Shown in pieces: positions 28,469 to 31,828 of a stretch of 39,566 nt of DNA. Origin of the DNA: Singulisphaera sp. (GTDB lineage: Bacteria; Planctomycetota; Planctomycetia; Isosphaerales; Isosphaeraceae); the NCBI GenBank assembly GCA_027451445.1, contig DAIDJG010000360.1:1-39566 (forward strand), given 5' to 3'. The notes below the pieces were generated by a model. That model was not told the origin of the DNA. It was given only the letters and a program-made list of their open reading frames with translations, and did not search any database. Numbering within the stretch: position 1 is the stretch's first letter; each line of letters opens with the position of its first letter. Made by a program: the position numbers and the translations under genes.

Positions 28469-29125
28469 ATGCCACGCACAGCACGCGCCGCCGTAGGCGG
28501 CATGATTTACCACGTTCTGAACCGCGGGAACCGACAGTCGGAGGTCTTCCACAAGCCGGACGACTACCTCGCTTTTGTCGACGCGATGGCCCAGGCGTGC
28601 GAGCGGTTACCACTCGATATCTTCGGCTACTGCCTGATGCCCGACCACTTCCACCTGGTCATTCGACCCGTGGAGGACGGCGACCTCGGGCACTGGATGC
28701 GCCGGGTGCTCACAATGCACGCCCAGCGCTATCACCGGGTCTACGAGACTTCGGGGCACGTATGGCAGGGACGCTACAAGGCCTTTCCGGTCCAGGACGG
28801 CGCCCACGTTACGACGATACTGCGCTACGTCGAGCGCAACCCCGTGCGCGCCAAGCTTGTGAAAAGCCCCGAGCGCTGGAAGTGGTCCAGCCTGCCCGGT
28901 TGGCTTGCGCGCGACCCTCTGCTCTGGAGGGGTACCCCTTCGCCCCGCGGTCGGAGCTGGTTGAAGCGCGTCAACACGGCGCTCTCGGCGGACGATCTCC
29001 AGCGCGTGCGCATTTCTGTCGCACGCGAACGGCCATTCGGCGACCCCGACTGGACGCTTCAGACAGCTCAGGAACTGGGGCTCGAGTGGACCCTGCGGAA
29101 CCGAGGGCGACCCAGGAAGGAGTGA
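28469..29125 (+). CDS. IS200/RAYT-like HUH transposase (REP-associated)
   Basis: This 218-residue protein matches the Y1/REP-associated tyrosine transposase family: MIYHVLNRGNRQSEVF at the start, the HUH motif PDHFHLV (His60, His62), then GHVWQGRYKAFPVQ and RYVERNPVRA. Such enzymes nick and join single-stranded DNA at REP-like hairpins and are usually single-copy domesticated transposases. At the position where E. coli RAYT has its nucleophilic Tyr, my alignment places a His (TMHAQRYH), with a Tyr four residues later. The leader contains the G-rich stretch AAAAGGGGACGGGCGGG at 28409-28425, probably part of its own end. A REP-like palindrome follows 0.8 kb downstream. Confidence 0.88.
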   Translation: MPRTARAAVGGMIYHVLNRGNRQSEVFHKPDDYLAFVDAMAQACERLPLDIFGYCLMPDHFHLVIRPVEDGDLGHWMRRVLTMHAQRYHRVYETSGHVWQGRYKAFPVQDGAHVTTILRYVERNPVRAKLVKSPERWKWSSLPGWLARDPLLWRGTPSPRGRSWLKRVNTALSADDLQRVRISVARERPFGDPDWTLQTAQELGLEWTLRNRGRPRKE

Positions 29126-29936: not shown

Positions 29937-29992
29937 GGGTCAGACTTAATTGTTCGTTTTCCAGGCGTGCCTGGAAAACGAACAATTAAGTC
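29937..29992. repeat. REP-like palindrome, split by the IS110 element
   Basis: The left arm at 29937-29966 starts GGGTCAGACTTAATTG and is followed by a 2-nt loop. The right arm at 29969-29992 is its perfect complement for 24 nt, ending CAATTAAGTC. The remaining 6 nt of the right arm (TGACCC) are found at 31814-31819, after the IS. Removing the IS therefore rebuilds a perfect inverted repeat with 30-nt arms. This is the probable insertion target. Confidence 0.8.
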
Positions 29993-30280
29993 CTCTATGA
30001 GTCGCCGGGTCAAGCCCCGTGAACGCGATTTCTTGGCTCTCTCTTTCTACTCCTTCCTCGGCGCAGACGCCGATCGTTTCGAGGAAATCCTGGGCTTACC
30101 GCCTCACCACCCGGGGAACCGGTGCGCCCGGGATCTCACTCTTTTCACATAAAATATTATCAATATTGTTCATCGATAAGGCCATCGGCTCGAAGCCTTT
30201 TCCTCCTGCGACCCATCGACAACTGTACTTCGTTCACCTCCCTCTCTCGTACAGCACACTCTCAAGCGACAAAGGCTGGC

Positions 30281-30552
30281 GGCTTCACGATCAGTCCGGC
30301 CCTTCGGGCCGGCACCGTCTTCTATCCGTGTTGATCACATCTAAGGATCAATCACCAGTTACTCATACGTCTCCCGACGCCTCGAAGCCAGAACTGGGGG
30401 AGCAAACCCATCTGACCCACGGTTCCCTTGCGGGAAACCCGACTAATTTCTCGGCCGCCCCCTCCAGCCCTGTCTGCTTGTGATCGCTTCCCGAGAGCCC
30501 AAGACCTCTTTCTTGTCCCGCCCCTTTCAAGGGGCTACGGTGACTGCCGAAC
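30281..30552 (-). ncRNA. Predicted bridge RNA/seekRNA of the IS110 element
   Basis: Shown on the plus strand, TCTGACCC at 30411-30418 equals the right half of the target (core TC plus TGACCC at 31812-31819). It is followed after 2 nt by a hairpin (GGTTCCC at 30421-30427, loop TTGC, GGGAAACC at 30432-30439, one bulged A), then by GACTAATT at 30441-30448, close to the reverse complement of the left target half (GACTTAATT). Another stable hairpin (CCGGCCC/GGGCCGG, centred near 30302) is followed by TCTTCTAT at 30318-30325, a 7/8 match to the left end of the IS (TCCTCTAT at 29991-29998). The RNA ends are unknown and I did not fold it by computer. Confidence 0.4.
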
Positions 30553-31725
30553 TCACGACACTTTCTTCACAGGCACGTCCTCCTCCGCAGCTCTCACCTC
30601 CGCACCCGCAGGCACCACGCCGGTCTCCAGGTACTTCCAAAGCGCCACCAACAGCTTTCGCGCCACCGCCACGATCCCCGATTTCCGCAATCGACTGTTT
30701 CCCTGGCCAAACCGCTCGCGGAACCAGCCGCTCAACTCGCTCTCCGGCTGGTACCGCAGCCAGAGCCAGGCCAGCTCGATCATCATCCACCGCACACGCC
30801 GATTCCCCGCCTTGCTGATCCCCTGCTCGCGACGGCTCTCCCCGCTGTCATACGGTGAAGGTGTCAGCCCCGCCAAGCTGGCCAGCTCGCGCCGGTTCTT
30901 GATCTGCCGCCAACCGAAGAACTCGCGCACCAACAGCCACGCCGTGTTGGGGCCGATCCCCCGCAGTCGCAACAATTGGCGTACCTGTTCCATCTGGGGA
31001 TCATTCGGGTCGCCGATGTGCTTCTTCCGCTCCAACTCCAACGCGCCGATCTGACGCGCGACCAGTTGCCTCCGCTCGAACTCCCGCGTCAGTCTCTGTC
31101 GCAGTCCAGACGGTACCTCCGAGCCGTCCCACTGGCGAAGTTGCTCGAGTTGCTCGGCGAAGCCAGAGTTGATCGTCACCATCAGGCCCAGCCCGGCCAA
31201 CAGTCCCTTGATCCGATTGTCGTGCCCAGTCCGCTCCCCTTTCAGACGGATCAAATCGCGGTGGAGTTGCCGCCGGTCCTCGTCAGCCACCGTGGGAATG
31301 CGGACCACCGCCCACACGTGCTCTTCGCCCTGGTGCGAGCGGATGAGCATCGAGACCAGCTTGGTCGCGTCCAGCCGGTCGGATTTGGCGCGACGCTTGC
31401 GGCGATTGACTTCGATCGATGCCGAGTCGACGACTCGGTTATCGATCCCCTCATGGATCAGAAAGCGATGGAGCCAGAAGCCGTCCCGGCCGGCCTCGTA
31501 GCAGGAGATCACCTTGGCGTCCGGCGGCAGGCCGAACCGCTCCTTGGCCTTCTTGATCTCAAGGAGGAGTTCGACGTAGTTACCGGCGGCCAGCGAGCGG
31601 AGCCGGGGTTTTTGGGCGGCTCCTGTGGTGAAGGCCAGCTTCCAGGAGTTCCGGCCCAGCTCCAAGGCCAGGTAGAGTACCAGTCTGGTCGCTGTGGTAG
31701 AATGGTCGTCGTGAGTCGCTGACAT
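30553..31725 (-). CDS. IS110-family transposase
   Basis: This 390-residue recombinase has the RuvC-like DEDD domain in its first half: an acidic residue in LYLALELGRNSWKLAF (here Glu rather than the usual Asp), Glu in CYEAGRDGFWLHR, and the two Asp of AKSDRLDATKL. The C-terminal Transposase_20 domain follows, with LRGIGPNTAWLLVREFFGW, LASLAGLTPSPYDSGES and the serine in GISKAGNRRVR. The frame is intact. Elements of this family insert by RNA-guided recognition of donor and target DNA. The start codon and ribosome site lie in a hairpin in the leader (31711-31787), which should restrict translation from read-through transcripts. Confidence 0.92.
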   Translation of the reverse strand: MSATHDDHSTTATRLVLYLALELGRNSWKLAFTTGAAQKPRLRSLAAGNYVELLLEIKKAKERFGLPPDAKVISCYEAGRDGFWLHRFLIHEGIDNRVVDSASIEVNRRKRRAKSDRLDATKLVSMLIRSHQGEEHVWAVVRIPTVADEDRRQLHRDLIRLKGERTGHDNRIKGLLAGLGLMVTINSGFAEQLEQLRQWDGSEVPSGLRQRLTREFERRQLVARQIGALELERKKHIGDPNDPQMEQVRQLLRLRGIGPNTAWLLVREFFGWRQIKNRRELASLAGLTPSPYDSGESRREQGISKAGNRRVRWMMIELAWLWLRYQPESELSGWFRERFGQGNSRLRKSGIVAVARKLLVALWKYLETGVVPAGAEVRAAEEDVPVKKVS

Positions 31726-31787
31726 GGGAATGTCCCTCCAAAAGGGATGCTGATAGCCACATATTCAGCTTACCTTCAGCGACTCAC
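31711..31787 (-). promoter_or_regulatory. Leader hairpin hiding the transposase start
   Basis: TCAGCGACTCAC occurs at 31776-31787 and its perfect complement at 31711-31722, which is exactly codons 2-5 of the transposase. Between them, TCCCT/AGGGA (31733-31737 and 31743-31747) forms an inner stem that holds the GGAGGG ribosome site. The folded RNA would occlude both ribosome site and start codon. Confidence 0.7.
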
Positions 31788-31828
31788 TCTCTGCCATCCT
31801 CCTACATGGTATCTGACCCTGGCGTCCC

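Follow-up and report, generated by a model that had tools for sequence, protein, structure and literature searches.

Bridge RNAs and seekRNAs are an already known kind of system in insertion sequences (ISs) of the IS110 family. The bridge RNA of IS621 (IS110 group; PMC11208160, PMC11208158) has two loops, with one pair of guides each for target and donor that surrounds a CT core, and is located upstream of the transposase gene (tnp). The seekRNAs of the IS1111 group (ISEc11, ISPa11, and ISKpn4; PMC11187229) are located downstream of tnp and carry the top-strand guide 5' of the bottom-strand guide; the transposases of this group have 330-350 amino acids (aa), and its subterminal inverted repeats of 11-13 bp lie 7 and 3 bp from the ends. 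A promoter at the junction of the circular form has been described for both groups (PMC11187229), and the insertion of IS110-family elements into repetitive extragenic palindromic (REP) sequences is also known (PMC1525189; ISPa11 in PMC11187229; REP targets of IS110 elements, PMC11208160). Here, we describe an IS110-family element of Singulisphaera sp. in a stretch of 39,566 nucleotides (nt), hereafter the window (contig DAIDJG010000360.1 of GCA_027451445.1, positions 1-39,566; coordinates refer to the window). Judging from sequence comparisons, the region downstream of its transposase gene very probably encodes a bridge RNA (seekRNA) acting with the adjacent recombinase. The element is a well-supported additional member of the known systems, in which both loops have been naturally re-coded.

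The initial annotation had located a candidate guide RNA downstream of an IS110 transposase gene, in its 560-nt 3' non-coding end. This placement was correct: the gene lies on the minus strand, is intact, and codes for 390 aa, and the non-coding region downstream of it holds the RNA (30313-30468). The segment TCTGACCC (30411-30418), proposed to repeat the core and one target half, is identical to the flanking sequence at 31812-31819, CT core included, while GACTAATT (30441-30448), proposed as a near copy of the reverse complement of the other half, matches it imperfectly (6/8 ungapped, or with one base skipped). The hairpin with one bulged base that was said to lie between them was seen in the fold. 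The chance expectation of 0.02 holds for a single fixed 8-mer; this 8-mer, however, had been picked after the fact, and a permutation test was used instead.

Relatives of the element were gathered from whole genomes, genome contigs, and plasmids, their ends and RNAs were read, and the guides of each element were paired with its own target or, by permutation, with the targets of other elements. The 5' guide was defined as the ten bases before the inner hairpin and was checked, as its reverse complement, against the eight bases immediately to the right of the element; the guide registers were chosen by inspecting the same sequences, and the permutation control used those registers too. For the 5' guides of 18 distinct elements, a mean of 6.78 out of eight positions agreed with the right flank when matched and 2.38 when mispaired. 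Their total was 122, whereas the best of 200,000 permutations reached 85, so none was as good. The 3' guides were compared with the left flanks of 11 elements at five positions, excluding a conserved AGA, and agreed at 39 of 55 positions against 20.5 expected; no permutation out of 50,000 was as good when 4-6 nt were compared (p = 2e-5 at 7 nt). The check that had been proposed at the outset, whether the two segments change with the insertion site in other copies, thus gave a positive answer on both sides. The same genome holds two more copies, one full (L002, contig C162, transposase 96% identical) and one truncated (L003, C74), and GGGTCAG is the left flank of all three insertions. The RNA of a relative from genome G040 carries GGGTTAGA, with GGTTAG at all four left flanks. 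Relatives from Mesorhizobium, Sphingobium, and Roseomonas (43-46% identity), whose ends were unrecognised by the junction pattern, were left out of the guide tests, as was an RNA match in genome G009 (L090), which comes from a truncated copy whose right end is damaged. No relative was found in the phage records searched.

Beyond the initial annotation, the RNA strand proved to be the minus strand, and the donor loop, which lies inside 30281-30552, was found to covary too. The 5' donor guide complements the first four bases of the element's left end (LE): the LE tetramers ATAC, ATGC, AAAC, AGCC, ATCC, and ATAA pair with RNA GTAT or GTAA, GCAT, GTTT, GGCT, GGAT, and TTAT, respectively. Agreement was seen at 65 of 68 positions, compared with 48.5 by permutation (0 of 200,000 as good). 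Downstream of the target loop, all 20 RNAs contain GATAGAAG or GAGAGAAG, close to the right end (RE) CATAGAAG; the RE itself is invariant. Since target guides are accompanied by donor segments that match both element ends, both halves expected of a bridge RNA are present.

RNAalifold on the alignment of the 20 RNAs (A1) gave the outer stem and the inner hairpin of the target loop, together with a donor-loop stem. The inner hairpin separates the two target guides, and the outer stem encloses both. Paired cells amounted to 90.2%, as compared to 75.0% after shuffling and 35-51% with slid structures, and two-sided changes were present at 13 of 20 pairs in 62 cells (shuffled, 8.6 pairs and 19.2 cells; 0 of 500 shuffles as high), although both kinds of control leave the relatedness of the RNAs in place. 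A covariance model built from the homologues (R1) had a single match in the window, at 30313-30468 on the minus strand, the window sequence itself having been used for training; it also matched the downstream RNAs of relatives outside the training set (L047, L074, L035, and L065). Rfam gave no match at gathering scores, and its sole hit below threshold was a meaningless microRNA. The layout suggested initially, two guides for opposite strands flanking a hairpin as in the target loop of a bridge RNA or seekRNA, was therefore borne out by the covariation of both guides with the insertion site and by a conserved fold with compensatory changes.

The transposase matched NF033542, 'IS110 family RNA-guided transposase' (183 bits, cut-off 140), and the C-terminal domain PF02371 (E 3e-19). 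Its sequence match to IS621 and ISCro4 is the C-terminal part with the SG motif (serine at residue 294), where GLTPSPYDSG aligns to the SG region of IS621. The bridge-RNA complexes of IS621 and ISCro4 were the best structural matches of an AlphaFold model with a mean predicted local distance difference test score of 79.9 (Z 20.1, 288-300 residues aligned; Foldseek E ca. 3e-11), and model residues 15-376 superposed on IS621 with 300 aligned residues at 5.0 Å (Z 20.1). RuvC resolvases also matched residues 15-141, indicating an N-terminal RuvC-like fold. In the putative DEDD set, as assigned by sequence alignment, conservation extends to the second E and the D..D pair, whereas the window protein and nearly all aligned relatives have Glu (ALELG) at the first position. 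This Glu is residue 22 (31660-31662); the relatives show the pattern x-E-L-[GSA] (alignment A2), and L073 has Asp.

The G040 relative (same family, ca. 60% identity) is present in four copies with different flanks, which fixed the termini and thereby the ends of the window element. The junctions ..AG/ATAC[CT]ATG (left) and CATAGA[AG]G/.. (right; slashes mark the element boundary) are common to homologous copies with differing flanks, and a two-base core, AG in IS orientation and CT on the opposite strand, is common to both junctions in L002, the four G040 copies, and L022. No inverted repeat of at least 12 bp between LE and RE was found at the termini of the window element, CCATG/CTATG being noticed by inspection only; subterminal inverted repeats are longer in some relatives, e.g. 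L038. In 14 of 17 elements, the RE end is preceded by TTGAC at a distance of 16-19 nt. The coordinates of all features are listed in Table 1.

Table 1 Features of the IS110-family element, its RNA, and its surroundings (window coordinates)
Feature	Position	Strand	Remarks
IS110-family element without core dinucleotides	29994-31812	-	1819 bp; left end 31812, right end 29994
Transposase/bridge recombinase, 390 aa, intact	30553-31725	-	PF02371, NF033542, AlphaFold model
Bridge RNA/seekRNA segment (covariance model R1)	30313-30468	-	82.6 bits, E 7.7e-18
Outer stem of target loop, 5' arm	30453-30460	-	Pairs with 30401-30408; two-sided changes at 5/8 pairs
5' target guide, RNA GAAATTAGT	30442-30450	-	Pairs with top strand (IS orientation) right of insertion; 6/8 here
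Inner hairpin, target loop	30421-30440	-	Arms 30435-30440 and 30421-30426; two-sided changes at 5/6 pairs
3' target guide, RNA GGGTCAGA	30411-30418	-	Pairs with bottom strand left of insertion; 8/8 with left flank including core
Outer stem of target loop, 3' arm	30401-30408	-	Pairs with 30453-30460
Donor loop	30319-30363	-	3' of target loop
5' donor guide, RNA AGTAA	30359-30363	-	Complements LE ATAC; 3/4 here
3' donor guide, RNA GGATAGAAG	30319-30327	-	Near-identical to RE CATAGA[AG]G
-35-like TTGACC in RE	30008-30013	-	With LE TACCAT (31806-31811), promoter-like site with 17-bp spacer at circle junction
Core dinucleotide, LE junction	31813-31814		CT on +, AG in IS orientation
Core, RE junction	29992-29993		CC on + here; CT in copy L002
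REP-like palindrome, left part of split target	29943-29992		24-bp arms
Right part of split target, TCTGACCC	31812-31819	+	31812 last IS base, 31813-31814 core, 31815-31819 flank; direct repeat with 30411-30418
RAYT-like gene (REP-associated tyrosine transposase)	28469-29125	+	PF01797; NF047646 77.7 bits, just below cut-off 80

The target, which the initial annotation had not classified, is a palindrome that resembles REP sequences of the RAYT-associated type and lies near a RAYT-like gene. The joined flanks give the palindrome GGGGTCAGACTTAATTGTTCG...CGAACAATTAAGTCTGACCC, and intact palindromes GGGGTCAGACTTAATT...AATTAAGTCTGACCCC occur elsewhere in the genome on several contigs. Seven further matches to the RAYT-like gene were found in the genome, one of which (C28, L077) lies directly behind a REP motif. 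A search for the empty site in the same-genus genome G009 returned RAYT-like stretches only, and the locus was not found there. The site GGGTCAGACTAATT on another contig (C249:4978-4992; L075 1979-1993) matches both window guides exactly, unlike the two occupied full-length sites. More REP-like palindromes with variant arms (GGGTCAGCCCGGATT, GGGTCAGAGCTAATT, and ATCAGACCGAGATCTTCG) were seen at C100:24186-24247, C249:4421-4481, and L002 1480-1520.

Based on these features, we propose the following mechanism, in which transcription, RNA binding, excision, and catalysis are predicted steps. Excision would join the element ends and thereby create a promoter from RE TTGAC and LE TACCAT or a similar sequence, and transcription from this junction through tnp would drive both tnp and the two-loop RNA. 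The first loop would pair with both target strands, the 5' guide to the right of the core and the 3' guide to the left, and the second loop would pair likewise with the joined element ends. The recombinase would then swap strands at the 2-bp core, so that the element is inserted as in IS621 (PMC11208158).

Several observations weigh against the interpretation of the RNA as a bridge RNA. In the window, the 5' donor guide matches LE at three of four positions, the RE core is CC and not CT, and the 5' target guide fits its target at only 6/8 positions when ACTAATTT is read against ACTTAATT ungapped, or with one base skipped (5/8 in L002). The right flanks misfit the guides in L015 (1/8), L019 (4/8), L016, and one copy from W05 (L050). 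Identical guides at unrelated targets, which the initial annotation had named as the finding that would speak against it, were accordingly seen only on single sides and in these few copies: on the left side, L015 and L019 do fit their guides, L016 is degenerate with two stops in the transposase and fits on the left side only, and L050 is one of several identical W05 copies. The covariation counts treat related elements as independent. Besides, the single-sequence fold of the RNA is not unusually stable compared with shuffles (z -1.26), and covariation alone was therefore used as evidence for the fold.

The 6/8 fit of the 5' guide, the CC core at the right end, and the exact GGGTCAGACTAATT site elsewhere are what would be expected if the bridge RNA were real and the window copy, through decay or because it is directed at a different REP variant, were immobile. 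This refinement is possible but on balance rather unlikely; the transposase frame is intact, and L002, which is 96% identical and has the same guides, occupies another REP-like site. An RNA that mainly regulates the transposase, as an antisense or 3'-derived small RNA like that reported for the REP-targeting IS110 element ISPpu9, would make the target matches secondary, and a 12-bp inverted repeat overlapping the start codon counts in favour of such a role. The covariation, however, is with the flanking DNA and the IS ends and not with the tnp mRNA; because a regulator need not track the insertion site, we consider this explanation highly improbable, while both roles can coexist. Unaided recognition of the REP hairpin or sequence by the transposase, with RNA matches that are due to chance or are relics of captured REP DNA, would agree with a palindromic target and the abundance of REP motifs in the genome but was rejected as having next to no probability, because relatives at unrelated sites carry guides fitting those sites at the same two positions of the conserved fold, and the permutation test already contradicts it.

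The inverted repeat mentioned above is perfect (31711-31722 and 31776-31787) and brings the beginning of the transposase frame (ATG TCAGCGACTCAC) into pairing with the left end; a comparable pairing is visible in L022. It could mask the start codon in the mRNA, by analogy with the reported 5' leader structure of ISPpu9. Between the tnp stop and the RNA, a GGGCGA hexanucleotide repeat (L015, L018, and L021) varies in copy number among otherwise near-identical G040 copies. A related IS is present in W05 (NZ_CP049319.1, 659080-663692; L051-L053) as three tandem copies with 1738-bp spacing, which looks as if one copy had inserted beside the end of another. Long near-perfect hairpins are located between the RNA and the right terminus in L022, L036, L041, and L016 and are absent from other relatives; they are possible terminators or secondary insertions.

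With regard to known systems, the layout and guide order of the window RNA agree with PMC11187229 and PMC11208160. The element resembles IS621 in its transposase model and in having an RNA of two loops, with guide pairs for target and donor that surround a CT core. Unlike in IS621, the RNA is downstream of tnp, and its guides, viewed in IS orientation, come in the reverse order around an AG core; read on the opposite strand, the guide order and the CT core are those of IS621. The position of the RNA, the order of top- and bottom-strand guides, and the predicted circle-junction promoter resemble those of the IS1111-group seekRNAs, among which ISPa11 likewise targets REP sequences. However, the transposase is longer than those of IS1111, the long subterminal inverted repeats are absent, and the protein groups apart from IS5075 and similar transposases: a tree of limited size, in which branches were long and references few, split it from IS5075, IS5708, ISShdy1, and ISPsy16 (support 100/100). 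The IS1111-like RNA position and guide order are not matched by protein length, tree, or long repeats, and the element is filed as an IS110-family bridge-RNA element, outside IS1111. It may belong to the IS110-family group with a downstream non-coding region that is coloured green in Fig. 1b of PMC11187229 and likewise lies outside the IS1111 protein clade. Insertion into a REP palindrome is shared with ISPpu9, ISPa11, and ISRm22 (PMC1525189, PMC8450116), from which the bacteria, palindrome sequence, and guides differ.

We tentatively suggest, at somewhat less than even probability, that the element and its relatives form a little-described, cross-phylum clade of RNA-guided recombinases in which Glu replaces the first catalytic Asp, the protein falls outside IS1111 although its RNA, located downstream and with reversed guide order, is of the IS1111 type, and both donor and target loops have been re-coded by evolution. 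This clade spans Planctomycetota, Chloroflexota, and Deltaproteobacteria, and the experimental papers cited here describe no such system from these groups. RNA-guided recombinases could serve as tools for programmable DNA insertion, and the clade offers ca. 20 elements re-aimed in nature, with 5' guides that are long (ca. 8 nt past the core) and donor ends that have likewise been re-coded naturally. The present case also indicates that a guide spotted by eye in raw sequence can be confirmed through comparison alone. While the system is known already, what is added here is that each guide is supported by relatives that evolution has re-aimed at many sites.
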